Below are positions 49,623-64,000 of a DNA stretch of 64,000 nucleotides, piece by piece. The stretch spans positions 1 through 64,000 of the forward strand of contig JAJDWB010000001.1 in the NCBI GenBank assembly GCA_022825855.1, written 5' to 3'. The position numbers and the translations under genes were made by a program. The notes under the pieces are model-generated. The model was not told where the DNA came from and made no database searches. It saw nothing but the letters and a program-made list of their open reading frames with translations. How positions within the stretch are numbered: the first letter of the stretch is position 1; every line of letters starts with the position of its first letter. The DNA comes from Dehalococcoidia bacterium. Lineage in GTDB: Bacteria > Chloroflexota > Dehalococcoidia > Bin125.

Positions 49623-50717
49623 ATGGACTCAGACTCACCCTCAAGTCCCTCCGGCACATCGGCGCCGCCCGTGTTTCTCACGGGAGCAGCAGGCCATGTA
49701 GGGGCGAACCTCGTGCGCAGATTGCTCGATGACGACATACGAGTCCGAGTGTTGTTGCGTCCCGAGGACAACAACGAAGCCCTTGAAGGGCTTGACGTTG
49801 AACGTGTCTACGGCGACCTTCGCGACCTCGACGCCATGCGGCAAGCCGTGGCAGGCTGCCACGGCGTCTACCACGTCGCCGCGCTCGTCTCGACTATCGA
49901 CGGTGACGATGCCCACCGCCGTGACGTGTTCGAGTCCAACGTGCTGGGCACCCGCAATGTGCTGCAGGCTGCGCGCGAGTCCGACGCCGGCAAGGTCGTC
50001 GTGACCGGCTCCTTCAGCGCCGTTGGATACGATCTTGACGACACGTCCGCGCCGGCCCGGGAGTCGATGCCGTTCTATCCAATGGAACGCACGATGCCCT
50101 ACGAACGCAGCAAGGCGATGGTCGAGAGCGAGTGCTGGCACGCGGCCGCGACCGGCCAGGAAGTGGTCATCGCCACCTGCTGCGCTGTGCTGGGCGGCAA
50201 CGACTTCTTGCCATCGAGGGTGGGTCGCACGCTGTGCGACTTCGCCAACCGCAAGCTGCACGCATATGTCGATGGCGGATTCGAATTCGTGGCCGCCAAC
50301 GACATCGTCCAGGGACATCGACTCTGCATGGAGCGCGGACGTTCGGGGGAAAAGTACATCTTCAGCACCCAGTTCCAGACGATCTCCGACCTCCTCGACC
50401 ACTTCCAGGAGATCACCGGCGTCCAACGTCCCCGCCGGCAGATTCCGCTGGGGTTGATGCTCCCACTCGCGGAGGTCTCCAGCCATCTCCTCAGCAGGCT
50501 CTATCCGAGCTATCCGCAACGCTTCACGCCCGGCGCGATTCGCCTGTTGCAGCTGCGGCGCCACGCCGACACCAGCAAGGCGAGAGAAGAACTCGGATTC
50601 CAACCATCGACCATCCGCGCCGCCTTGGAGGACGCTTACGCGTTTCACTTTGAGCGGGGTGCGATCACGAACACCCGCGCCAAGCGCCCGGAACGGGCCG
50701 TCGCAACGCAGGCTTAA
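49623..50717 (+). CDS. sdmB: SdmB-like NAD(P)-dependent sterol dehydrogenase (3beta-HSD family), copy 1
   Basis: 364 residues of the extended SDR / 3beta-hydroxysteroid dehydrogenase family. FLTGAAGHVGANLVRRL is the NAD(P)-binding loop, and YERSK (Y160, K164) the catalytic pair. In bacterial C-4 demethylation as described in Methylococcus, SdmB oxidises the 3-hydroxyl and decarboxylates the C-4 carboxylate made by the Rieske enzyme SdmA. The Rieske gene follows after 46 bp, which supports this role. A close paralogue lies at 59001; even at DNA level the cofactor-binding region is strongly similar. It is the first gene of the operon; GGGA precedes the ATG. Confidence 0.75.
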   Translation: MDSDSPSSPSGTSAPPVFLTGAAGHVGANLVRRLLDDDIRVRVLLRPEDNNEALEGLDVERVYGDLRDLDAMRQAVAGCHGVYHVAALVSTIDGDDAHRRDVFESNVLGTRNVLQAARESDAGKVVVTGSFSAVGYDLDDTSAPARESMPFYPMERTMPYERSKAMVESECWHAAATGQEVVIATCCAVLGGNDFLPSRVGRTLCDFANRKLHAYVDGGFEFVAANDIVQGHRLCMERGRSGEKYIFSTQFQTISDLLDHFQEITGVQRPRRQIPLGLMLPLAEVSSHLLSRLYPSYPQRFTPGAIRLLQLRRHADTSKAREELGFQPSTIRAALEDAYAFHFERGAITNTRAKRPERAVATQA

Positions 50718-50763: not shown

Positions 50764-51876
50764 ATGACTGTCGACACGGACGCGCCGCCGACCGCACCTC
50801 CCGCGTTCGGAAGCGCCGATAACCTGCGCCAGCGGGCGCGATCGGTGGGCATGAACCCGGACTACTGGTACGCCGTCGAGGAAGTACGCAATGTCGACCC
50901 CGGCTCTGTGACCGAGGTCGTCTTCTGGAAGCAGTCCATCGCCCTCTACCGCTCCGAGGACGGCTCCTTCCACGCAATGGAGAATCGCTGCCTGCACCGC
51001 CAGATCAAGCTGTCACTGGGCGAGGTCGAGGGTTGCCGGCTGGTCTGCGGTTACCACGGCTGGGAGTACGACGAAGACGGCCAGGTCGCCGAGATCCCCG
51101 ACCTGTTCGGGCGCAAGCAGGCCCCGCGACTCTCGGTGCGCACGTATCCCGTGCAGGTCCGCTACGGTCTGGTCTGGATCTTCCCCGGAGATCCGGCCCT
51201 GACCGACGAGCGGAAGATCCCTGAGATTCCGGAACTCGAAGGCCCGGGACGATGGGCCTGCGTTCCGCTGACCTTCGATCTCTCGGCTCACCACTCGATC
51301 ATCATCGACAACGTCAGCGACTTCTCTCACGCTTACCTCCACCGCCAGTACCGGCCTTTCGACGGCGCCACGCTCACCCGACACGAGACCATTGGCGACA
51401 ACGTGCACCTCGCCTACGAGACGCGAGTCGGTCGGGGCCGCATCTCCGGGCTGTTCGTCGATCACGAGCGGCTCAACACCAATCACATGGAACTCTGCTA
51501 CGAGTATCCGTATCAGCGCTCAGACACCGACGGCGAGATCAAGCACTGGCTGTTCGTGCTGCCGATCGACGAGCGGACAACGCGCACCTTCTTCCTCTTC
51601 TACTTCCGCTCGCTCAAGATCCCCATGCTGCCGGTCCGGATTCCCCGCTGGGCGATGACCACGGTCCTGCGACTCGCCAACCGGATGTTGATCGGTCCGC
51701 TGCTCTCGCAGGACCGCTGGGCAGTTGAAGCTGAGCAGACCGGCTACGAGCACAACTGGAACGCCGCACCGATCGAAGTCAATCCGGTCGTGCGTTCCTT
51801 CCAGCAGGTAACCGTCCGCAAGTGGCAGGAGCACCTCGACCAAGAAGAGGCAGCCGCGAAAGCGATCGATGCCTGA
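50764..51876 (+). CDS. sdmA: SdmA-like Rieske non-haem iron oxygenase (sterol C-4 demethylase)
   Basis: 370-residue Rieske oxygenase. The Rieske cluster ligands are C76-x-H78 and C95-x2-H98 (NRCLHRQ and VCGYHGW). The mononuclear iron site is in VSDFSHAYLHRQ (H189, H193, with D186 as the bridging Asp). In bacteria this class (SdmA) oxidises the C-4 methyl group of sterols, replacing the eukaryotic ERG25/SMO enzyme. The ATG at 50764 has AAGGGAAG upstream. The stop overlaps the reductase gene by 8 bp. The electron-transfer partner is not in the window. Other Rieske roles such as KshA-type steroid hydroxylation cannot be excluded, but the neighbours favour C-4 demethylation. Confidence 0.78.
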   Translation: MTVDTDAPPTAPPAFGSADNLRQRARSVGMNPDYWYAVEEVRNVDPGSVTEVVFWKQSIALYRSEDGSFHAMENRCLHRQIKLSLGEVEGCRLVCGYHGWEYDEDGQVAEIPDLFGRKQAPRLSVRTYPVQVRYGLVWIFPGDPALTDERKIPEIPELEGPGRWACVPLTFDLSAHHSIIIDNVSDFSHAYLHRQYRPFDGATLTRHETIGDNVHLAYETRVGRGRISGLFVDHERLNTNHMELCYEYPYQRSDTDGEIKHWLFVLPIDERTTRTFFLFYFRSLKIPMLPVRIPRWAMTTVLRLANRMLIGPLLSQDRWAVEAEQTGYEHNWNAAPIEVNPVVRSFQQVTVRKWQEHLDQEEAAAKAIDA

Positions 51877-52966
51877 ACAACTCTCCGAATGGACGAGTTT
51901 CTCTGGCGGCCAGTTGCTTGAGGCGGCGGCGATCTTCTTGGCGTTCGTCGGCGTTCTGTTGCTGGGGTCGAAGTGGCTGCCCGGTCGTCGCGAGGGGAGC
52001 GGCCCCGATCTCGACGGCGCGACCCGTACCTACACGCTGAACGGGCTCCCGCTACTGCTGGTCGCCATGCTCGTGGCCGTGCTCGGCGACGTGTTCGGAG
52101 CGTTTTCGCTGTCCGTGCTGCACACCCACTTTGCCGAGTTGTTCGTGGTAGCCAACATCTTCGCCTTCGCGCTGACGGCGGTGTTGTACCTGCAAGGATC
52201 TCGCAGCGGAGTCGAGTCGCCGGGATTCTGGCGAGGCCTGTTCTTCGGCCGGGTGTCCAACCCCAGTTGGTTGGGCGTCGACGTCAAACTGTTCAGCTAC
52301 CGTCCGTCCCTGATCGCGCTGGCGCTGTTCAACGTATCGTTTGCCGCGGTGCAGTACGACACGTATGGCGAGCTGTCGTTACAGATGATCCTCTACCAAG
52401 TGTTCACGTTCGTTTACGTCCTGAACTACTTCCAATTTGAGTACGGCATGATCTACACGTGGGACATCGTCTCCGAGCGCTTTGGCTGGATGCTGGCCTG
52501 GGGAGACTACGTGCTGGTGCCGTTCTTCTATTGCCTGTCGGGCTGGTGGGTCTTGCACGAGACAGACTCCTTCCCCGGCTGGGCCGCAGCGCTGATTTGC
52601 TTGCTGTTTGTCGTGGGATTCTGCATGTTTCGCGGCGCCAACGAACAGAAGCACCGCTTCAAGCAGAACCCGCAGGTGTCAATCTGGAGGCGGACGGCCG
52701 AGACGCTGGACGGTCGGTTGCTGGTATCGGGGTTCTGGGGCGTGGGGCGTCACTTGAACTACACGGGCGAGATTTGCGTGTACTTCGCGTTCGCCCTGAC
52801 GACCGCGTTCGCGTCCTGGATTCCGTTCGCCCTGCCCGTCTGGCTGGCTGCGCTGTTATGGCATCGCGCCAGGCGCGACGACCGACGTTGCCGGACCAAG
52901 TACGGCGAACTCTGGGAACGTTACACCGAGCGCGTGCCGCACGCTCTGATTCCCGGCGTCTACTAG
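51869..52966 (+). CDS. ERG4/ERG24-family sterol reductase (probably delta14)
   Basis: 365-residue integral membrane protein with about nine hydrophobic segments. The C-terminal signature LLVSGFWGVGRHLNYTGE (residues about 284-301) and the ending KYGELWERYTERVPHALIPGVY are the two defining motifs of the ERG4/ERG24/DHCR7 family, where they bind NADPH and sterol. ERG24-type delta14 reduction directly follows CYP51 in the pathway, and the CYP51 gene is next, so C-14 reductase is the best guess; delta7 or delta24(28) reductase activity is not excluded. The gene overlaps sdmA by 8 bp. Confidence 0.82.
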   Translation: MPEQLSEWTSFSGGQLLEAAAIFLAFVGVLLLGSKWLPGRREGSGPDLDGATRTYTLNGLPLLLVAMLVAVLGDVFGAFSLSVLHTHFAELFVVANIFAFALTAVLYLQGSRSGVESPGFWRGLFFGRVSNPSWLGVDVKLFSYRPSLIALALFNVSFAAVQYDTYGELSLQMILYQVFTFVYVLNYFQFEYGMIYTWDIVSERFGWMLAWGDYVLVPFFYCLSGWWVLHETDSFPGWAAALICLLFVVGFCMFRGANEQKHRFKQNPQVSIWRRTAETLDGRLLVSGFWGVGRHLNYTGEICVYFAFALTTAFASWIPFALPVWLAALLWHRARRDDRRCRTKYGELWERYTERVPHALIPGVY

Positions 52967-52999: not shown

Positions 53000-54388
53000 A
53001 TGGTCCAACTGCGCAGCAAGTTGACTTCTTCACCGGAGCAGCGTTCGATACCGGAACTGGACGGTGGAGCGCCGCTGATCGGTCACCTGCTGGATTTCCA
53101 ACGCGATCCGGTGGCGATGCTGAGTCGCGGCAGGCGCCAGTTGGGCGAGCTGTTCCAGTTCCGGCTCGGACCGCGACCGTTCGTGCTCTTCAGCGGGCCC
53201 GAGGCGCACGACGCCTACTTCAGCGCTCCGGAGGATCAACTCAACGCGAAGGCGGTCTACCAGTTCACGGTGCCAATCTTCGGTCGCGGCGTGGCCTACG
53301 ATGTCGCTCCCCAAATCATGGCCGAACAGCTCGGTTTTCTCTACCCGGCGCTCCGGGAAGCGGCGATGCAGCGGTTCGCCCGGATCATGTTCGAGGAAGT
53401 CTCGCTCTTCGCCGACTCGCTCGGAGAAGAGGGCGAGTTCGATCTTCCCGCTGCCATGAACGAATTGACCGTCAACATTGCCAGTCGTTGCCTGATTGGA
53501 CAGGAAGTTCGGGACCAGGTCGACTCCGGGTTCGCCGATGCTTATCACGATCTGCAGAAGGGCATCAACACCCTGGGATTCTTCTTTCCTCGGCTGCCGA
53601 CCCCCGCGCATCGCAGCCGCGATCGGGCGCGCAGACAGGTGGCAGATATCTTCGGCCAGGTGATGGCGGCTCGCCGCCGTTCAGGAACACATCACGACGA
53701 CTTCATGCGGTCGCTCATGGACGCCAGCTACTCCGACGGCCGCGCGCTGAGTGATGAAGAAGTGACCGGGATCCTCTTGACCGTGTTGTTTGCAGGCCAG
53801 CACACCAGCGCTGTGCTCGCCACCTGGACCGGGCTGGAGCTGATGAGAACGCCGGATTACGTAGAACGGGTGAGGGATGAGTCCCACGCCATCTACGGCG
53901 AGTCCGGGTTAATGAGCCTCGAGGGCCTCAAGCAACAAGTGACCATCGAACACGCGGTGCGGGAGTGCGAGCGGCTCCACCCGCCATTGATCATGTTGAT
54001 CCGCAAGGTGCTGCAGCCGATGCCCTACGGCGATTATGTCGTGCCCGCCGGCACCCTGGCCATGGTATCGCCCGCGGTGGCTCACCGGCTGCCCGAGCTG
54101 TTCGCCGATCCGGACCGATTCAATCCGGATCGCTTCGCGCCTCCTGCCCGCGAGGACAAGCAGCACCACTACTCCCTGATCGGGTTCGGCGGCGGCGCGC
54201 ATCGCTGTATGGGCAAACACTTCGCCGAGACGCAGATCCAGGCGATCTGGACCGTGTTGCTCGACCGTTTCGACTTCAGTCTCGCGACCGGGTTCCCGAG
54301 TCCCAACTACGGGAGTTGGGTGACCGGACCCCAGACGCCCTGCCGAGTGCGCTACCGGCGCCGCTCGCAGGAAAGCGCCTTCCGGTGA
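53000..54388 (+). CDS. cyp51: Sterol 14alpha-demethylase CYP51
   Basis: 462-residue cytochrome P450. Two CYP51-specific signatures are present: the B'-helix motif Y87-x5-I-FG-x-GV-x-YD101 (VYQFTVPIFGRGVAYD) and the I-helix AGQHTS (265-270), the form found in eukaryotic CYP51. K-helix ECERLHPP, and the haem motif FGGGAHRCMG with C403 as axial ligand. The whole chain resembles Mycobacterium CYP51, including the RYRRR ending, and has no N-terminal membrane anchor. It removes the 14alpha-methyl of lanosterol-type sterols by three oxidations. The gene begins 33 bp after the reductase and overlaps the SQMO-OSC start (GTGA). The redox partner is not in the window. Confidence 0.92.
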   Translation: MVQLRSKLTSSPEQRSIPELDGGAPLIGHLLDFQRDPVAMLSRGRRQLGELFQFRLGPRPFVLFSGPEAHDAYFSAPEDQLNAKAVYQFTVPIFGRGVAYDVAPQIMAEQLGFLYPALREAAMQRFARIMFEEVSLFADSLGEEGEFDLPAAMNELTVNIASRCLIGQEVRDQVDSGFADAYHDLQKGINTLGFFFPRLPTPAHRSRDRARRQVADIFGQVMAARRRSGTHHDDFMRSLMDASYSDGRALSDEEVTGILLTVLFAGQHTSAVLATWTGLELMRTPDYVERVRDESHAIYGESGLMSLEGLKQQVTIEHAVRECERLHPPLIMLIRKVLQPMPYGDYVVPAGTLAMVSPAVAHRLPELFADPDRFNPDRFAPPAREDKQHHYSLIGFGGGAHRCMGKHFAETQIQAIWTVLLDRFDFSLATGFPSPNYGSWVTGPQTPCRVRYRRRSQESAFR

Positions 54389-57300
54389 CAGACAGGACCG
54401 GCAACCACTATGACGTGGCCGTCGTCGGCGCCGGTCCCGTGGGCAGCGTGTGCGCGATTGCTCACGCCCGGCGCGGCTATCGGGTCGCCCTGTTCGAGGC
54501 GAATCCTTCGGCTTCCAACCGGCTGGCCGGCGAGTGGTTGCACCCGCCGGCCGCGCGAATCTTGAGTGACCTCGGGATCTCGGCGGAGACCCAGGACCAG
54601 AGCACGGCCGGAGAGGGATTCGCCGTGTTTCCGGAGGACGGCCGCGAACCGATCGCGCTGCCCTATGCGAGCGGCTCCCGCGCCCTGGTCTGCGAGCATT
54701 CGGCGCTCGTCTCGAGTCTGCGTGAGGCCGCCGGGAACGAGCCCGGCGTCGAACTCAGGATGCACGCCCGCGTCGACGCCGTCGAAGACGGCCAACTGAC
54801 GTACTCCCAGAACGGCACTAGCGAAACCGTGACAGCCGAGAGGATTGTTGGCGCCGACGGCCGCTCCTCCGTCGTCCGCCGTTCGCTGGGTCTGACCGCC
54901 GGCGCCATGACCTGCTCGCGGATGATTGGGCTCACGCTTGAGGGGGCGAGCCTGCCTCTGGAAGGCTACGGCCACGTGATCAGCGGTGCGCCCGGTCCGA
55001 TGCTCATCTATCGACTGGGCGATGATCGAATCCGGGCCGTGGTTGACATCCCCTTGCACTACGCGCCTCGAGACTGGAAGGGTCTGCTGTCGGACTCGTA
55101 CGCCCGATGGATGCCGGAGCAACTACGGCATGCATTCCTCGACGCCTGGTCGGACGAGCGCGTGCACGCCGCCGCCAATGTCGTCAATCCGCGCGTAACC
55201 TATGGCACCTCGCAGCGAGTGCTGATCGGCGACGCCGCCGGACACTACCACCCGCTGACTGCTACGGGACTCACGCTCGGACTCGGAGACGCCGTCGCGC
55301 TGGCCGGCAGCGAAGACTTTCGCGATTTTCGCAACCAACGATTCGATGCCACGCGAGTGCCGGAGTTGCTGGCTATGGGCTTGTACGAAGCGTTCGCCGA
55401 TCATCGTGCGGAAGCGGCGGCGCTCCGACAGGCGATGTACGGGCGCTGGCGAAGGAGCGGCGCCGTCCGCGCCCGGACGATGCGGCTCCTCGCCTGCGAG
55501 GACACGTCGGTCGGCAGCCTCAGCCGCGAGTTCTCGACGACGGTGGCCTGGGCGCTCAAGACCACGGTCCCTCGAACCGTCAATCCGGCCGCCTGGCGAC
55601 AGTTCTTCGGCGTTGCTCGAGGCATGGGAAATCGATTCGGCTGGCTCATGCAGGCAGGCTGGCATCTGCACAGCGTCCGACGAGCCGAGGGCAGCCAACC
55701 CGAACGAGCCACCGAGACCCTGGCCCACGCGTTTCTGACCTCGATGCCGTCGCTGTCCTCGCGATCCGCCGAGCCGCGCCAGGTCGAGACCGAGTCGCCC
55801 GATGCGCACTCCGCAGTCCAGCGGGCCGCGGCGCGCCTGGTCGACCTCCAGGCCGAGGACGGCGGTTGGGAAGGCGAGATGGTCTGGTGCCCCATGATCA
55901 CGGCCCAGTGGGTGCTGCTGCACCACATCATCGGCCGTCCGATCGAGCCCGGACGACGAGAGAGACTGCTGCGTTACTTCGAGCACGCCCGGCTGCCCGA
56001 AGGAGTCTGGGGCTTGCACGATCACGGGGCGCCGCACCTGTTCGTGACCACCCTCGTCTACGTCGCTTCCCGGCTGCTGGGCGTCGAACACGGCGATCCA
56101 CTGATTGCTCCGGCGCGCCGGTTCCTGCAGCAGGAAGGCACGCTCGGCATTCCGAGCTGGGGCAAGTTCTGGCTGGCGCTGCTCAATCTCTACGACTGGT
56201 CGGGACTGCATCCCGTGCTGCCCGAGCTCTGGAGCCTGCCTCGCCGACTGCCGCTGCATCCCTCGAACTGGTACTGTCACACGCGGCTGATCTACATGGC
56301 TATGGCCTCGATCTACCCGCGCCGTTTCCAGGTTCCCGTCACACCGATCATCGCGTCGCTGCGCGAGGAGCTCTTTCCGCAGGGATTCGAGAGCATCGAC
56401 TTTCCCGCCCAGCGCGATCACTTGAGGGAAGCCGATCTCTTCGCACGACCGACATCGCTGTTGCGCATGGGCTATCGAGGCGCGCAACTGGTTGAGCGTT
56501 TCCACGACCAGGGCCTGCGCGCCCGCTCGATGGACGCGCTGATTAGGCAGATCAAGTGGGAACTGAACACCACCGACCACACGAGCATCTCCCCGGTCAG
56601 CGGCCTGCTCAACATCCTGGCGTTGTGGCTGCACGATCCCAATGACCCCGACTTCCGGCGAGGGCTGGAGCAGGTTGACCTCTGGTTCTGGGAAGACGAC
56701 GAAACCGGCGCTCGCATGACGGGCGCCAGGAGCGCCTCCTGGGACACCGGATTCGCGCTGCAGGCGCTCGCGGCTGCCCGCGGGGTCGACGGCGTGGCTG
56801 AGTCGCTCGAGCGCGGAAGCGGCTACCTCCGGAATCAGCAGATCGTGACCAGTTTCCCCGGTTACCGCGAGGCCTTCCGCAACGACCCCAAGGGCGGCTG
56901 GTGTTTCGCCGCGCGATGGCACGGTTGGCCGGTGACGGACTGCACGGCAGAAGCAGTGCTGGGGCTGGTCGCTGCCGGACCTGGCGCTGTGGGCGCGCAG
57001 GCTCTGCGCGACGCGGTCGGCTTCATGCTGCGCGGACAAAATCGGGACGGCGGATTCGGCAGCTATGAGAGCCAGCGGTCTCGGATCGAGCTCGAACGAG
57101 TCAATCCCGCCGAGATGTTCGGCGAATCGATGACCGAGCACTCCTACGTCGAGTGCACGGCATCCTGTCTCGCGGCCCTCGCCGCCTGCCGGGACCACTC
57201 ACCGGAAGTCATCGATCGGACCGCGGCGACCGCCATGTCGCACGCCGACGCCTGGTTACGCCGGAACCAGGGGGCGGACGGATCGTGGCGCGGCGTCTGG

Positions 57301-57732
57301 GGGGTCCAGTACATCTACGGCACCTTCTTCGGCATCCGCGGACTCGTCGCCGGCGGGGCTCGACCCAACGATCCGGCGCTGCGATCCGCCTGCCAGTGGC
57401 TGGTCGACCGACAGCGCGAGGACGGAGGCTGGGGCGAGCACCACAGCGGCTGCCTGAGCGGAGAGTATGTGCCCCATGACGAGAGCCAGATCATCCAGAC
57501 CGCGTGGGCTCTGATCGCGCTGCTCGAAGCAGGCGACTCGAATTGGGCCGCGATTACCCGCGGTGTGAACTTCCTGATCGACTCCCAGACCCAGGATGGT
57601 TCCTGGCCCAGGCAGGACATGGCCGGCGTGTTCTTCCGCACGGCCTTGCTCGACTACGTGCTCTATCGCCAGTACTTCCCGCTGCACGCGCTGGCGTTGT
57701 ACGAGCAGCGCCGCCGCTCGCGCGGCGCCTGA
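54385..57732 (+). CDS. Squalene monooxygenase - oxidosqualene cyclase fusion protein
   Basis: One 1115-residue chain joins two successive sterol enzymes. Residues 8-430 are a flavin monooxygenase of the squalene epoxidase type: GAGPVGS (FAD), GADGRSSVV (DG motif) and GDAAGHYHPLTATGLTLGLGD (GD motif, D283, with the HPLT characteristic of squalene epoxidases). After a linker (about 452-476) comes a triterpene cyclase from residue 477 with QW repeats (GGWEGE, GGFGSYE, GSWRGVWGVQYIYGTFF, GGWGEHHSGC). The catalytic DCTAE (D852) identifies an oxidosqualene cyclase rather than a squalene-hopene cyclase (DxDDTA). YCHTR (H632) and YVECT (C924) match human H232 and C533; H846 and V850 occupy the product-controlling positions, V favouring lanosterol. 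GTG at 54385 overlaps the CYP51 stop. Confidence 0.93.
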   Translation: MTDRTGNHYDVAVVGAGPVGSVCAIAHARRGYRVALFEANPSASNRLAGEWLHPPAARILSDLGISAETQDQSTAGEGFAVFPEDGREPIALPYASGSRALVCEHSALVSSLREAAGNEPGVELRMHARVDAVEDGQLTYSQNGTSETVTAERIVGADGRSSVVRRSLGLTAGAMTCSRMIGLTLEGASLPLEGYGHVISGAPGPMLIYRLGDDRIRAVVDIPLHYAPRDWKGLLSDSYARWMPEQLRHAFLDAWSDERVHAAANVVNPRVTYGTSQRVLIGDAAGHYHPLTATGLTLGLGDAVALAGSEDFRDFRNQRFDATRVPELLAMGLYEAFADHRAEAAALRQAMYGRWRRSGAVRARTMRLLACEDTSVGSLSREFSTTVAWALKTTVPRTVNPAAWRQFFGVARGMGNRFGWLMQAGWHLHSVRRAEGSQPERATETLAHAFLTSMPSLSSRSAEPRQVETESPDAHSAVQRAAARLVDLQAEDGGWEGEMVWCPMITAQWVLLHHIIGRPIEPGRRERLLRYFEHARLPEGVWGLHDHGAPHLFVTTLVYVASRLLGVEHGDPLIAPARRFLQQEGTLGIPSWGKFWLALLNLYDWSGLHPVLPELWSLPRRLPLHPSNWYCHTRLIYMAMASIYPRRFQVPVTPIIASLREELFPQGFESIDFPAQRDHLREADLFARPTSLLRMGYRGAQLVERFHDQGLRARSMDALIRQIKWELNTTDHTSISPVSGLLNILALWLHDPNDPDFRRGLEQVDLWFWEDDETGARMTGARSASWDTGFALQALAAARGVDGVAESLERGSGYLRNQQIVTSFPGYREAFRNDPKGGWCFAARWHGWPVTDCTAEAVLGLVAAGPGAVGAQALRDAVGFMLRGQNRDGGFGSYESQRSRIELERVNPAEMFGESMTEHSYVECTASCLAALAACRDHSPEVIDRTAATAMSHADAWLRRNQGADGSWRGVWGVQYIYGTFFGIRGLVAGGARPNDPALRSACQWLVDRQREDGGWGEHHSGCLSGEYVPHDESQIIQTAWALIALLEAGDSNWAAITRGVNFLIDSQTQDGSWPRQDMAGVFFRTALLDYVLYRQYFPLHALALYEQRRRSRGA

Positions 57733-57744
57733 TCCCCGCTTCCG

Positions 57745-58776
57745 TCAGTCGTCGGACCCGCCGGGTTTGATCGCCAGGTAGTAGAACATCGGTGTAAAGA
57801 CGCCCGTCTCCCCGCCTTCGACCAGCGCGTCCGCGCCTGCATTGAGAACGCTGCTGATCTCTCTCGCGCCCTCGGGCACAATCCGCAATCCCTCGCCGAT
57901 GCGCAGAGCCAGATTCGTCAGTGCCCGGCCGATCGGCGTCCGCGGCACGCTCGCCAGGCTCAGATCGCGGCCTTGCAACGCCCGATACCAGGGCGTCTCA
58001 GGATCCGCCTCGGGAGCCAGATCGCGCACTTCCACCAGTTCGAATCCGGCCTCGATCAGCGCTTCGCTGACCTCCGACGTGTGCGAGATATCTGGCAGGC
58101 CGTTGCCCTTCATCACCCGCTGCTTGATCCGCATGTGCTCAGCGTTCGCCGAGTCGAACGCGTCGGTCAGACACCATTCGTAGCCCGCGAACTTGCCGCC
58201 CGGACGCAGGACGCGGAAGATCTCGCGAAACACCGCCGTTTTGTCCGGCGCGTGCGGTGTGGCTTCGATGTTGAACGCGGCGTCGAACGACTCGTCGCCC
58301 TCCGGCACTTGCATGTAGTCGCCGTGGATGAACCGGCACTGTGTCTGGACATCCCTCGTGTGACGCTTCGCTCGCTCGATCTGGTACTCGTTCAGGTTGA
58401 TGCCGACGAAGCTCGCGCCCGTGTGACGGGCCAGATTCGCCATCGGCCCACCGACGCCGCAGCCCACGTCCAGCACCTGCATGTCCGAAGTCAGGTCCAG
58501 CCGCTCGGCCAGAAACAGCTCGTGCCTCAGGATCGCGTCGCCGAAGCTCTCGCCCCGGCGTCGAGGCGCGAAGTGGAACGAACGGCCCCAGCCGAACTCG
58601 TAGAAGTCGGTCGCCAGGTTGTAGTAATGATTGACGACGGAGTGGTAGCGGTCCTTGCGCTCCTCAACGCTGCCGTCAAACAGCTCCGCATAGTCGTCAA
58701 CAACCGGTTTGACCTCGTCGGGATCGAGATCGCCAACCGAACGTCCGCTCGAACGCCGAGCAAACAGCCGGCTCAC
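57745..58776 (-). CDS. smt: Sterol C-24 methyltransferase (SMT)
   Basis: 343-residue SAM-dependent methyltransferase with SMT-specific motifs, not only the general fold. YYNLATDFYEFGWG (51-64) followed by SFHFAPR is the sterol-binding region I; LDVGCGVGGP (102-111) binds SAM; NEYQ (129-132); IEATPHAPDK (170-179) matches the SMT YAIEATCHAP motif; and the C-terminus carries GADALVEGGETGVFTPMFYYLAIKP as in plant and fungal SMTs. It would methylate the side chain at C-24, a step long regarded as eukaryotic. GTG at 58776 follows AGGGG. It is transcribed against the main operon (12 bp past the cyclase stop) and divergent from the second SdmB paralogue. Confidence 0.9.
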   Translation of the reverse strand: MSRLFARRSSGRSVGDLDPDEVKPVVDDYAELFDGSVEERKDRYHSVVNHYYNLATDFYEFGWGRSFHFAPRRRGESFGDAILRHELFLAERLDLTSDMQVLDVGCGVGGPMANLARHTGASFVGINLNEYQIERAKRHTRDVQTQCRFIHGDYMQVPEGDESFDAAFNIEATPHAPDKTAVFREIFRVLRPGGKFAGYEWCLTDAFDSANAEHMRIKQRVMKGNGLPDISHTSEVSEALIEAGFELVEVRDLAPEADPETPWYRALQGRDLSLASVPRTPIGRALTNLALRIGEGLRIVPEGAREISSVLNAGADALVEGGETGVFTPMFYYLAIKPGGSDD

Positions 58777-59000: not shown

Positions 59001-60092
59001 ATGATGGAATCCCAAGAAGCCGAAACCACATCAGGCAACTCGGCGCCGCCGGTGTTTCTCACAGGCGCAGCCGGACATGTAGGCGCCAACCTCGTGCGCA
59101 GACTGCTCCACGACGGCGTGCGTGTTCGCGTGTTGCTCAGACACGAGGACAACAACGCGGCCCTCGAGGGGCTTGATGTCGAGCGCGTCTATGGCGACAT
59201 TCGAGATCTGGACGCCACCAGGCAGGCCGTCGCGGGATGTCACGGCGTCTATCACTGCGCAGCCCTCGTTTCGACGGTCAGCGGGACGCGCGCCCATCGC
59301 CGGGACATCTTCGATAGCAATGTGCTCGGCACGCGCCACGTACTCCAGGCCGCCCGGGAGGCAGACGCGGGGCGGGTTGTCGTGACCGGCTCAATCAGCG
59401 CAATTGGCTATGACCTGGACGATCCGTCGGCTCCCGCCGACGAGTCCATGCCGTTCTACCCAATGGAGAGCAAAACGCCGTACGAACACAGCAAGGCATT
59501 TGTCGAGAAGGAGTGTTGGCACGCCGCGGCCGCCGGTCAGGACGTCGTCGTCGCCACGTCCTGCGCCGTGGTCGGTGGTTACGACTTCTTTCCCTCGCGA
59601 ATGGGCCAGACGCTATGCGACTTCGCCAATCGCAAGCTTCACGCCTACATCGAAGGAGGATTTGAGTGGGTAGCCGCTCAGGATCTCGCGCAGGGGCATC
59701 TGCTGTGTATGGAACACGGACGCACGGGCCAGCGCTACATCTTCAGCACCGAGTTCCTGACGATCTCCCAGTTGCTGGACCTGTTTGAGGAAGTTTCGGG
59801 CGTGCGCCGACCTCGGCTGCGGATACCCATTCGCCCAATGCAGGCCATCGCGCCAATCTCCAGCTATGCGCTTGGCCGGCTGCAGCCGAACTACGAACAG
59901 CGACTCACTCCCTACTCGGTGCGCGTCCTTGGGCAGCGTCGCCGTACCGACATCAGCAAGGCGAGAGAGGAGCTGGGCTATCAGCCGACATCGGTTCGGG
60001 CCGCGATTCATGATGCCTATGCGTTTCACTATCAGCGCAACGCGATCACCAACTCGCGAGCCAATCGCCCTCTGGAATCGTCGGCCGGTTAG
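59001..60092 (+). CDS. SdmB-like NAD(P)-dependent sterol dehydrogenase, copy 2
   Basis: 363-residue paralogue of the protein at 49623, collinear over almost the full length. It shares FLTGAAGHVGANLVRRLL and YEHSK (Y161, K165), and ends with the same ALITNSRAxRP-type tail (here NAITNSRANRP). Two neighbouring ATGs (59001, 59004) are possible starts; the ribosome-binding site spacing favours 59004. The copy may serve the second C-4 methyl removal, the 3-keto reduction, or another 3-hydroxysteroid step. Strong DNA-level similarity of the first 150 bp suggests a fairly recent duplication. The P450 fusion gene follows after 143 bp on the same strand. Confidence 0.75.
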   Translation: MMESQEAETTSGNSAPPVFLTGAAGHVGANLVRRLLHDGVRVRVLLRHEDNNAALEGLDVERVYGDIRDLDATRQAVAGCHGVYHCAALVSTVSGTRAHRRDIFDSNVLGTRHVLQAAREADAGRVVVTGSISAIGYDLDDPSAPADESMPFYPMESKTPYEHSKAFVEKECWHAAAAGQDVVVATSCAVVGGYDFFPSRMGQTLCDFANRKLHAYIEGGFEWVAAQDLAQGHLLCMEHGRTGQRYIFSTEFLTISQLLDLFEEVSGVRRPRLRIPIRPMQAIAPISSYALGRLQPNYEQRLTPYSVRVLGQRRRTDISKAREELGYQPTSVRAAIHDAYAFHYQRNAITNSRANRPLESSAG

Positions 60093-60235
60093 CGGGCAGC
60101 CGAGAGGGCGAGGGCGCGACCGCCGAGTCGGAAACAGGCGCCTTGCACGCCGAATGCACACGTCCGTGCGGCGACTATCCTGAAGTGTGGCAAGTTGAGA
60201 CTCCACGCGGAGTCAAGTTCCGGCGAGATGCACCT

Positions 60236-62272
60236 ATGATCACCGCCACACCGGACCCCAGCACCCACACCAAGACCCTCAGTTTGACTGAGGATCTGAT
60301 CCTGATGTTGCTCAACGAAGAGAGCGGGTTCTTCTATCAGGTACCGGGCTGGGCTCTGAGTTGCACGATCTCCGGCGCGGCTATTGCCCAGCTTTCACTC
60401 TTGTCCCGGCTTCACTCCGACTCCGATTCGCTGATCTTGTTGGATGATTCGAAGACCGGCGACCCCGCCCTGGATCCGGTTCTGGAGGAAATCGCCAGCG
60501 AATCCGAGCAACACAACGTCCAGTACTGGGTCGAACGGCTGGCCCCGCACGCGGAGTCGATCATCGACCGGCGGCTGGAACACCTCGTCGAGAAACGAAT
60601 CCTCAGACACCACGCCGGTGAGTTCTGGACTCTCGCTCCAAACACGGGGCAACTCGACGAGTACATGGTCTCCCGCGAAGGATCCGTCGTCGATTTCGTC
60701 CGAACCCGCATCAGCCGCGTCATCTTCGAGAACGAGATTCCCGACCCGCGAGACATGATCATCATCAGCCTCGTCAATGCCTGTGGCGTCTTCGGCTACA
60801 TCTTCGAACTCGATGAACAGTCGCGCGCCAGGATCGAGTTCATCAGCAACCTCGACGAGATCGGCCGCTCGATCGCGACCGCGGTGACGCAGAGCGTCGC
60901 CTCCCCGCTGCTGCAGCATCCGCCCCTGACCAAGCGTGTGCCCAAGGCGCCCCTGCGTCACTTGCTGTTCAACCGCCACATGCGCGAAGGCAACCTGCCG
61001 GCGCTGTTCGCCGACCTCGCCGCCAGGCACGGTCCGGTCTTCGAAATCACCCCGCCGTTCCAGAAGGAGCGAACGATCTATCTCGCCGGTCCCGAGACCA
61101 ACCAATGGGCGCACAAGCATGGACGCATGTACTTCCGCGCCAAGGAGTACTTCCAGAAGCTCGAGGAAATCTACGGCGTCTCGCGCTCAATCCACTCGAT
61201 GGACGGCGCCGATCACTTCCGCTACCGCAAGGCCATGTCGCCGTCGTACTCCCGCGAGGCCTTGACGGATCGCCTCGACGAAGTGCAGCGCAATGCGCAC
61301 GCACACATGGCCAACTGGCAGGTTGGCGAAGACCTCACCGCCTGCACCAACATGCGGGAGCTGATGAACACGCAGATCTCGCCGCTGCTGATCAGCACCG
61401 AAACCCAGGACATCATCAACGAGGTGATCGACTACAAGGTTCGAGCCCTCAACGTGGGCCTGCTCAAGGTCTTGCCGGACCTCATGCTGAAGACACCGAA
61501 GATACGCCGAAACGCCAGGACCGTTGCGGAGCTGATCGCCCGCGTCCAGCGCACCCATACGCCTGCCCAACGGCTTGGCAAACCGCGGGATGTGGCCGAT
61601 GGTTATCTCGGTCTCAACGCAAGCGACCCGCAGTTCTTGCCGGAGTCCGACTTGGGCGTGCCGCTCGGCACCATGCTCATGGCCAGCATGTACCTCGGTG
61701 ACCAGCTCGGCTTCGCCCTCTATGCGTTGGTGACCCACCCGGAACTGTATGAGCGGGTGACGGCCGAAGCGGACGCTCTGTTTGCCGACGGCAACGTTGA
61801 CGGCGAAGCCATCCGCCCCGACAAGATCGACGTCACCCATCGTGTGTTGATGGAAACGCTGCGCATGTACCCCATCGTCGCGATGGCAATGAAGCACATC
61901 ATGAACACCTGCGTGGTTGAGGGCTTCGAGCTACCGGTCGGTGCGCGCGTGGTCGTGGCCTCGACGGCGACCCACTACATGGAGGACATCTTCCCCGATC
62001 CGTGGACCTTCGACATTGACCGCTACCTGCCTCCCCGAGACGAACATCTCAGCACGGCCTACGCCCCCTACGGTCTGGGGACTCACGCTTGCATGGGCTT
62101 CCGCTGGTCCGAGGTGCAGTTGGCGCTCAACCTGCTCATGCTGGCGCACTACTTCAAATTCGAGTTGGGCGCCGAACCGCCCAAGCGGCTGATCAATTCG
62201 TTCCCCTCGCAGTCGCCCAGCAACAAGATCCTGTTCCGGATCGTCGAACAGCGTCACGAGTTCCGGACCTGA
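60236..62272 (+). CDS. GPP34 (GOLPH3-like) domain - cytochrome P450 fusion
   Basis: 678 residues. The first 220 residues match bacterial GPP34: SLTEDLILMLLNEESGF, SGAAIAQLSLLSRLHSD, TGDPALDPVLEEIA, the RRLEHLVEKRILR helix and the EIPDPRDMIIISLVNACGVF segment. Eukaryotic GOLPH3/Vps74 of this fold binds phosphatidylinositol-4-phosphate at membranes. Residues 225-678 are a P450: ETLRMYP (E540-x2-R543), FDIDRYLPPR and the haem motif YGLGTHACMG (C619). The I helix reads ASMYLGDQLGFALYALVTHPE, without the acid-Thr pair that normally delivers protons to bound oxygen. The ATG at 60236 is chosen because GPP34 starts soon after; a longer frame upstream is unlikely. Role in the pathway unknown, perhaps membrane-directed sterol tailoring. 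Confidence 0.82.
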   Translation: MITATPDPSTHTKTLSLTEDLILMLLNEESGFFYQVPGWALSCTISGAAIAQLSLLSRLHSDSDSLILLDDSKTGDPALDPVLEEIASESEQHNVQYWVERLAPHAESIIDRRLEHLVEKRILRHHAGEFWTLAPNTGQLDEYMVSREGSVVDFVRTRISRVIFENEIPDPRDMIIISLVNACGVFGYIFELDEQSRARIEFISNLDEIGRSIATAVTQSVASPLLQHPPLTKRVPKAPLRHLLFNRHMREGNLPALFADLAARHGPVFEITPPFQKERTIYLAGPETNQWAHKHGRMYFRAKEYFQKLEEIYGVSRSIHSMDGADHFRYRKAMSPSYSREALTDRLDEVQRNAHAHMANWQVGEDLTACTNMRELMNTQISPLLISTETQDIINEVIDYKVRALNVGLLKVLPDLMLKTPKIRRNARTVAELIARVQRTHTPAQRLGKPRDVADGYLGLNASDPQFLPESDLGVPLGTMLMASMYLGDQLGFALYALVTHPELYERVTAEADALFADGNVDGEAIRPDKIDVTHRVLMETLRMYPIVAMAMKHIMNTCVVEGFELPVGARVVVASTATHYMEDIFPDPWTFDIDRYLPPRDEHLSTAYAPYGLGTHACMGFRWSEVQLALNLLMLAHYFKFELGAEPPKRLINSFPSQSPSNKILFRIVEQRHEFRT

Positions 62273-62299: not shown

Positions 62300-64000
62300 T
62301 CAGCGCTCCCCGCCGTCGTCGAGCGCCAGATCAAGTTCGTCCCAGGATCGCTCCAGCGACGAACGCAGCCGCATGTTCTGATACGCACCCCAGATCGTCA
62401 TCGCCGGCGGCACCAGAATCGTCGAGACGATCAGCGCGTAGCCGATCGTGATCGCAACGGTGATGCCGAATTGTTGCGTCGCCAGGGTTGGCGCGAAGGC
62501 CAGCACGCCGAGACCGAGGGCCGTGGTCAGCGCTGAACCCAGCAGGGCCGAGCCGGTGGTCGCCAGGGTGCGGATCGCTGCCGCCTCGGGATTGCGGGAA
62601 CGCGAGAACTCCTCGCGGTAGCGGTGAATGACGTGGATCGTGTAGTCCACGCCGATGCCGATCGACAGCGCCGTGATGATCGACGTGGTCAACGTGTAGG
62701 GAATGCCAACCAGCGCCATCGTGCCCAGCACCCAGATCAGCACCAGCACAATCGGTCCGACCGCAACCAGGGCGAGCGCGGGCTGCCGCAGCGTGGTCCA
62801 GTAGAAGATCATCAAGATGGCAAGCGCCACGACGATCGTCGCGACGATTGACTCGGTCTGACGGCTCGTGATCTCGTCGGTCACGGCGACCGAGATGATG
62901 CCATCGGAGGTCGCGGTGATGGCATCGTCGTCACCCTGCCAGATCTCTTCCAGATCGCTCTGGACGTGCCTGACCTTGTCGGCGTCGAGTCCGTAGGCCG
63001 GGAACTGGACCAGGATCCGGTCCGGCCCCGACGGGTCGTTGATCAGATAGTTCTCGATCTGAGGGTGACGTTGCTCGAGCCGATCGAGGAAGGTCTGCAT
63101 CTGCTCCGGGACGAGCTGCAGTCCGGCCGTCGCTTCCTCGTACAGCGCCGCGAGCTCGGCGTCGTATCGATCGCCGGGTTCGCCGCTGTCGTCAACCCAG
63201 TCGCTGGCCAGCAGTTCAAACGAGTTCTCGATCGGCCCGGCCGCCGCGGCCGGACGCCGCTGTTCGTCCTCGAAGACGAACCGCATGTCCTGCAGATTGA
63301 GCAGGGTTCGCGTGTCGGTCGCCTCGGCATCGATCAGGATGCTGATGATCTCAGTCGTGCCGCCGAAGGCGGACTCCAGCGTGTTCAGGTCGGCAAGCGC
63401 GTCGCCGCCGGTCGGCAGCACGTCGTGAATGGTGAACCTCGCCTCGATGTCGGTGGACGCGACGCCGAAGACGATCGAGATCGCCCCGATCACTGCGATG
63501 TACGGCAGCGGACGACGAGTCACGGAGCTGCCCAGCGAGGCTGCCAACGATCTGATCCCGGGAATCGCATCGGCAACCAGTCTCGGCGGCTTCAGCGAGC
63601 CGCGCGCCTCTCGGCGTCGATCGAGAATGGCGCGCGCAGCCGGAATCAGGGTCAGCATCACGATCAGGCTCATGCCGATTCCGAGACCCGACACGATGCC
63701 GAAATCGGCGATCGCGGGAATCGGCGACAGCAGTTGGGCGAACAGGCTGCCGATGGTCGTCACTGCCGCCAGACTCAGCGGAACCATGACGATGCGCATG
63801 CTCGCCCGCAGCGCGTCGATCACCGGCCGCTCGCCGGCCCGCTGCTCGCGATAGTGCGACAGCGCCTGCACGGCATAGTCGACGGTGAGGCCGATCACGA
63901 TGATCGGGATCATCACCGAGATGCCGCTCGGCCGCCCGGTGATTCCCAGGCCGTTCGGCCCCAGCCAGCCTTCCAGTCCGACCAGCCAGATCAGCGAAAC
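62300..64000 (-). CDS. MMPL/RND-family lipid transporter, C-terminal part (cut by right edge)
   Basis: 566 visible residues; the frame is open at base 64000, so the N-terminus is missing. It shows the end of one 6-TM bundle (MIPIIVIGLTVDYAVQ, with the GxxxDY proton-relay motif, through MLTLIPAARAIL), a periplasmic domain of about 200 residues, and a second bundle with GIGVDYTIHVIHRYREEF, the repeated GxxxDY motif. The layout matches MmpL, HpnN and the sterol transporter BstA/Patched-type RND proteins with sterol-sensing-like helices. Its place at the edge of the sterol cluster, 27 bp past the P450 fusion stop and convergent to it, suggests export or transbilayer movement of the sterol product. 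A hopanoid transporter is the alternative. Confidence 0.85.
   Translation of the reverse strand, partial: VSLIWLVGLEGWLGPNGLGITGRPSGISVMIPIIVIGLTVDYAVQALSHYREQRAGERPVIDALRASMRIVMVPLSLAAVTTIGSLFAQLLSPIPAIADFGIVSGLGIGMSLIVMLTLIPAARAILDRRREARGSLKPPRLVADAIPGIRSLAASLGSSVTRRPLPYIAVIGAISIVFGVASTDIEARFTIHDVLPTGGDALADLNTLESAFGGTTEIISILIDAEATDTRTLLNLQDMRFVFEDEQRRPAAAAGPIENSFELLASDWVDDSGEPGDRYDAELAALYEEATAGLQLVPEQMQTFLDRLEQRHPQIENYLINDPSGPDRILVQFPAYGLDADKVRHVQSDLEEIWQGDDDAITATSDGIISVAVTDEITSRQTESIVATIVVALAILMIFYWTTLRQPALALVAVGPIVLVLIWVLGTMALVGIPYTLTTSIITALSIGIGVDYTIHVIHRYREEFSRSRNPEAAAIRTLATTGSALLGSALTTALGLGVLAFAPTLATQQFGITVAITIGYALIVSTILVPPAMTIWGAYQNMRLRSSLERSWDELDLALDDGGER

Follow-up and report, generated by a model that had tools for sequence, protein, structure and literature searches.

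In GOLPH3, residues W81, R90, R171 and R174 bind PI4P and a hydrophobic hairpin is inserted (PMC4414131, PMC13408441), while the basic tails of client enzymes are held in a negatively charged groove (PMC13408441). The steroid gene clusters of sponge symbionts, in the passages of two studies that were searched (PMC9531527, PMC10070321), include ERG24, CYP51, lanosterol synthase, SMT and SdmA/B, with Dehalococcoidia among the carriers, and these passages contained no mention of a GPP34-P450 gene. A literature search found no description of such a fusion either, in agreement with the first-pass annotation, which knew of none; where papers mention both 'GPP34' and P450, their subject is insect pests, and an unrelated insecticidal protein also goes by the name 'Gpp34'.

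The DNA analysed here, a stretch of 64,000 nucleotides from a Dehalococcoidia bacterium (the window), carries a gene in which a GPP34 domain is followed in the same reading frame by a cytochrome P450. Its features are:

60236-62272, + strand: GPP34-P450 fusion gene, an uninterrupted single ORF of 678 aa with an ATG start and no internal stops
60284-60892, + strand: GPP34 (GOLPH3-like) domain, residues 17-219 (PF05719, E 4.5e-29; GOLPH3 fold match)
60350-60352, + strand: W39, the equivalent of GOLPH3 W81 (alignment)
60554-60565, + strand: E107-I110, the positions of GOLPH3 R171/R174, with both Arg missing (alignment)
60614-60634, + strand: hydrophobic beta-hairpin region, residues 127-133, including F130, W131 and L133 (model and alignment)
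60962-62230, + strand: cytochrome P450 domain, residues 243-665 (PF00067, E 8e-34; best Foldseek match 6mcw)
61655-61735, + strand: I-helix, with ASMYLGD instead of AGx(D/E)T and Y486 at the Thr position (alignment)
61853-61864, + strand: ExxR motif, E540-R543, invariant in 51/51 sequences
62063-62098, + strand: haem loop with axial Cys619 (codon 62090-62092), Cys being present in 50/51 sequences

An in-frame TTG is located 5' of the ATG at 60143, from which the product would be 709 aa; from the ATG, ~15 residues precede the GPP34 domain. Both Pfam domains score far above their cut-offs, PF05719 at 102 bits against 29. All of the motifs quoted in the first-pass annotation as a GPP34 pattern are present in the N-terminal part, and its assignment of the remainder to a P450 with an ExxR motif and an axial Cys is borne out by E540-R543, Cys619 and the PF00067 match. 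A GPP34 match was thus obtained for residues ~1-220, and a profile built from 26 fused N-terminal parts matched GOLPH3 (3kn1, E 1e-6) and Vps74. When an AlphaFold model of the N-terminal part (pLDDT 77) was compared with the PDB, only GOLPH3 and Vps74 were matched below E 1e-3, the best match being GOLPH3 9qpq_B (E 3.3e-8, TM 0.68). The full-length model (mean pLDDT 83) includes a complete P450 fold, for which the nearest solved P450 both by sequence and by Foldseek is CYP51 of M. capsulatus (6mcw, TM 0.82 on target).

In total, 58 GPP34-P450 fusions were collected; they come from MAGs of Chloroflexota and, as a result of transfer, of Proteobacteria. Of the 14 other members of the window's genus that were sampled, 13 have the same one-frame pair. 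It extends to other families of the class, to more families across the phylum and to the Proteobacteria MAGs, and single-contig genomes are among the assemblies that carry it. The concern that a frameshift might join two genes was answered by the single frame seen here and by one-frame fusions at 47-89% identity in independent assemblies. As judged against the two nearest orthologues, dN/dS is ~0.08-0.10 for the whole gene and 0.08-0.12 per domain, and the fusion is under purifying selection. The pairing of GPP34 with P450 is therefore confirmed as due neither to chance nor to assembly error.

An alignment was made of 51 fusion sequences, 47-88% identical to that of the window. In a quick tree of 58 sequences, which carried long-branch warnings, all fusions of subfamily I fell on one side of a branch with a support of 100, and were divided into clade A, with the gene of the window, and clade B, the larger of the two. 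Nested within clade B are two sequences from Gammaproteobacteria, indicating horizontal transfer. Sponge MAGs account for two of the nearest relatives, namely MPNM01 bin125 (Aplysina aerophoba) and jk18x25bins.9, a name that follows an Ircinia study (PMC9531527), and the source bacterium is marine and probably sponge-dwelling.

A second fused subfamily (II) is present in the phylum at 30-32% identity, and unfused P450s are found at 28-36%. Members of subfamily II (L138, L139, L140) have a standard I-helix and are followed by an Acyl_transf_3-type acyltransferase gene, shown by Pfam in L138, and a stop codon breaks the reading frame of the L140 copy. A distant GPP34-P450 copy (L104, G005:C20; ~33%) lies on a short contig with its two halves out of frame with each other. 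Two P450s (L133, L134) retain only the last GPP34 helix, have a stop codon within the region of the match and may be decayed fusions. The source genome also encodes a second, stand-alone GPP34 (L113, G000:C16:3827-4423), ~25% identical and located away from sterol genes. A 'split' form, with a stand-alone GPP34 beside P450 or sterol genes, was sought and none was found.

The first-pass annotation had suggested that the P450 may be docked beside a sterol substrate, and a sterol setting is supported by the content of the window, where the fusion gene is accompanied by:

49623-50717, + strand: second SdmB-like gene, 73% identical to the gene at 59001-60092 over 340 aa
50650-51876, + strand: SdmA-like Rieske oxygenase (NF052579, 400 bits, under the curated cut-off of 600)
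51869-52966, + strand: ERG4/ERG24 sterol reductase (PF01222, E 2.7e-66)
53000-54388, + strand: bona fide CYP51 (E 1e-107 to M. capsulatus CYP51)
54385-57732, + strand: squalene epoxidase (SE) fused to oxidosqualene cyclase (OSC), 1115 aa (SE and SQHop_cyclase Pfam domains)
57745-58776, - strand: sterol C-24 methyltransferase (SMT; Sterol_MT_C, E 1.2e-17)
59001-60092, + strand: SdmB-like sterol C-4 demethylation dehydrogenase (NCBIfam NF052578, 303 bits, under the curated cut-off of 600)
62300-64000, - strand: MMPL/HAE3 RND transporter with a sterol-sensing domain (Pfam), a recurrent neighbour that is convergent to the fusion and runs past the window end

Adjacent OSC, CYP51, SdmA/B and SMT genes, as expected of a bacterial sterol biosynthesis cluster, are thus all present together with ERG24, and the cluster is flanked by the two SdmB-like genes (49623-50717 and 59001-60092). 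The SE-OSC reached 746 bits with TIGR03463, under the curated cut-off of 851. As judged by open-frame length, a single SE-OSC ORF is shared by most of the genus's OSC genomes, by most of those in one other family and by a Gammaproteobacterium, and G287 and G317 have an unfused OSC; a literature search for the SE-OSC fusion did not find a description.

The class was sampled with 343 genomes, of which 36 were found to have the full fusion; a true OSC was taken as one scoring >600 bits. All 18 OSC genomes carry the fusion and no OSC was found in the 307 genomes without it, a co-occurrence for which the Fisher p of 2e-20 ignores kinship and is of descriptive value. The other half of the fusion genomes (18/36) are without an OSC, and both squalene cyclase and oxidosqualene cyclase are missing from 11 of the 21 fusion genomes tested, including the single-contig G331. 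The substrate in cyclase-less genomes is therefore either scavenged or not a sterol, and the sterol-type module there probably works on a scavenged sterol or on something else. G331, G421, G456 and G491, among others, have such a module without a cyclase and may alter sterols that are dissolved or come from a host.

Clade A is made up of OSC genomes only, and in three of them (G243, G287 and G317, from two other families) the fusion lies within ~350 bases of the OSC. Within 6 kb of the 32 clade B loci with flanks, an RND transporter is present at 29, a KshA-type Rieske oxygenase at 29, a flavin amine-oxidase-like enzyme at 22 and a methyltransferase with a sterol methyltransferase C-terminal domain at 17; none of these four partner genes was present at any of the 9 stand-alone GPP34 loci. 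The nearest solved protein to the Rieske protein is 3-ketosteroid 9-alpha-hydroxylase, and the nearest to the flavin enzyme is LkcE. Fusions in other genomes adjoin an ERG4/ERG24 pair and another SMT. The search for the domain pair and its neighbours returned a recurrent family in a sterol-type setting. At the nearest orthologue with flanks (L028), the transporter is the only sterol-type gene clearly present within 10 kb. At L046 (14581-16898), L029, L030, L031 and L036, the sterol-type module is adjoined by genes for an MFS transporter and an LppX/LprG-type lipoprotein, a combination also known from lipid export in mycobacteria.

By profile and fold, the N-terminal part belongs to the GPP34/GOLPH3 family, but the W81/R90/R171/R174 pocket for PI4P is not complete. 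W39 is retained in 50/50 rows with a letter at this position and is the sole residue of the four to be kept. The three pocket-Arg positions are occupied by V/A/I46, E/D107 and I/V/M110, with Arg in 0 of 49 fusion rows with a letter. Given that the R174 equivalent is mostly kept in the stand-alone GPP34s of the phylum and also in subfamily II, it was lost within the window's fusion family. The fused GPP34 part is acidic, with a net charge of -13 to -26 and a pI of 4.2-4.8 in 26/26 rows, as are the stand-alone GPP34s of the phylum. An acidic domain without the pocket Arg residues argues against docking on anionic lipid, which the first-pass annotation had proposed for this part; that proposal is weakened and right in part at best, and PI4P or other anionic docking was rejected on these grounds. 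The acidity likewise disfavours bulk electrostatic binding to the membrane. The sequence leaves hydrophobic docking, binding of a neutral lipid, or docking to a protein as possible roles, and docking via a hydrophobic face formed by W39 and the hairpin residues F130, W131 and L133 is possible. A longer hairpin in fused than in stand-alone GPP34s was considered and dropped, as the alignment gap could be placed elsewhere.

The C-terminal part has the Pfam p450 domain, the ExxR motif, the axial Cys and the fold of the P450 superfamily, and an FDxxR motif with D593 and R596, both invariant in the alignment. The invariance of ExxR and near-invariance of the Cys argue, at the level of sequence, for a working haem enzyme. 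The acid-alcohol pair of the I-helix, which is usual though not obligatory in P450s, is missing. In a register that depends on the sequence alignment, the fusion family has (A/S)SxY, mostly ASxY, with Tyr in 51/51 rows of subfamily I, whereas the nearest unfused P450s and subfamily II retain AG(A/L)DT. The loss of this pair indicates, short of proof, non-standard oxygen activation. P450s without the I-helix Thr often show non-standard chemistry, as in CYP74, CYP8A1, CYP152 and P450eryF, though P450eryF is without it and yet hydroxylates. A literature search for sterol P450s without the I-helix Thr found nothing. The fusion was rejected as a 14-demethylase, as the cluster contains a true CYP51, with which it shares 24.5% identity, and as the I-helix motif is missing.

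Taken together, the fusion may be a peripheral haem-binding sterol-tailoring P450, docked hydrophobically by its GPP34 domain at the membrane near sterol and the transporter and using non-standard oxygen activation, a reading for and against which the chances appear evenly balanced. The GPP34 domain would replace the N-terminal membrane anchor of eukaryotic sterol P450s and would lay the enzyme on the membrane via the Trp39 pocket and the F130/W131/L133 hairpin rather than via an anionic phosphoinositide headgroup. Docking of this kind would hold the active site near membrane sterol and the neighbouring sterol-sensing RND transporter, and the P450 would modify a sterol, or an intermediate late in the pathway, elsewhere than at C-14. 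With the I-helix pair lost, the enzyme probably activates oxygen in a non-standard way, whether substrate-assisted, peroxide-driven or by a rearrangement. We infer the sterol substrate from gene neighbourhood and co-occurrence, and the fusion is linked to a pathway step by association. The OSC-less half of the fusion genomes, the flanks of L028 that are poor in sterol genes, and the clustering of the OSC association by ancestry count against a sterol P450.

Other explanations were weighed against this sterol-tailoring reading. An artefact of assembly or annotation, or two genes read as one, is improbable in the extreme: no evidence was found in its support, and it was ruled out by the recurrence of one frame in dozens of independent assemblies together with a dN/dS of ~0.08. 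A possible but less probable role for GPP34 is that of a protein-protein adaptor, whose acidic surface would bind a basic stretch of the RND transporter, the Rieske protein, SMT or a redox partner and so gather the sterol enzymes. The strongly negative charge in all 26 rows, the constant gene partners and the lost pocket Arg are in keeping with such a role, as is the acidic groove in which GOLPH3 holds basic client tails (PMC13408441). However, stand-alone GPP34s are acidic too, so the acidity is not specific to the fusion; the membrane face retains its Trp pocket and its hydrophobic hairpin, and no partner tail was identified.

Alternatively, and this is entertained tentatively, the P450 may not be an ordinary oxygenase and may instead work as a haem isomerase, dehydratase or peroxygenase on an oxygenated sterol supplied by the neighbouring Rieske and flavin enzymes. 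The replacement of Thr by Tyr in every subfamily I row, as against AG(A/L)DT in subfamily II and the closest unfused P450s, and the non-standard chemistry of many Thr-less P450s point in this direction, but P450eryF hydroxylates without the Thr and Y486 or D489 might act as a proton relay. It is doubtful that the substrate is another membrane lipid or a terpenoid, with sterol genes beside the fusion in some genomes only. OSC is missing in half of the fusion genomes and any such cyclase in 11/21, subfamily II is followed by the acyltransferase rather than sterol genes, and MFS and LppX/LprG-type lipoprotein genes are nearby in some genomes. Against this, the SMT with Sterol_MT_C, the KshA-type Rieske protein, ERG4/24-like reductases and the sterol-sensing transporter recur even where OSC is absent.

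The families involved are known and the domain architecture is new; it is recurrent, constrained and tied by gene context to the sterol metabolism of symbiont bacteria, and the fusion is probably a sterol-modifying enzyme of a kind not described before. It adds an uncharacterised, probably oxidative step to the bacterial sterol pathways of sponge symbionts, and the sterols of sponges and their symbionts underlie the dispute on the oldest animal biomarkers. Bacterial GPP34 has almost no assigned function, and its fusion to an enzyme of a sterol cluster is a direct clue that bacteria, too, use the domain in the service of lipid enzymes or to place these at membranes. Stand-alone GPP34s, subfamily II with its standard I-helix and subfamily I without it form a natural series for the role of GPP34 and the lost motif. 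More speculatively, and with little expectation on our part, the fusion could represent a new class of membrane-docked bacterial P450, in which a GOLPH3-type reader of sterol or neutral lipid, formerly of phosphoinositide, feeds membrane sterol to a P450 of non-standard chemistry in symbionts that make their own sterols or modify those of the host.

Among known systems, CYP51 of M. capsulatus, a natural CYP51-ferredoxin fusion (6mcw), resembles the window's protein in its P450 fold, its sterol gene cluster and its fused form. However, the two share ~21% identity, the M. capsulatus protein has AGHHT where the fusion has the I-helix Tyr, and it carries a C-terminal ferredoxin rather than an N-terminal GPP34; the window's cluster has its separate true CYP51. 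GOLPH3 and Vps74 (PF05719) share the fold, the lipid-pocket Trp and the hydrophobic hairpin with the fused domain, which differs in being acidic, without the pocket arginines, fused to an enzyme and preceded by ~15 residues. Stand-alone bacterial GPP34 proteins, such as SCO4440 of Streptomyces (PMC12402492), consist of the same domain but are unfused, and those of Chloroflexota, unlike the fusion, mostly keep the R174 equivalent and do not adjoin sterol genes.
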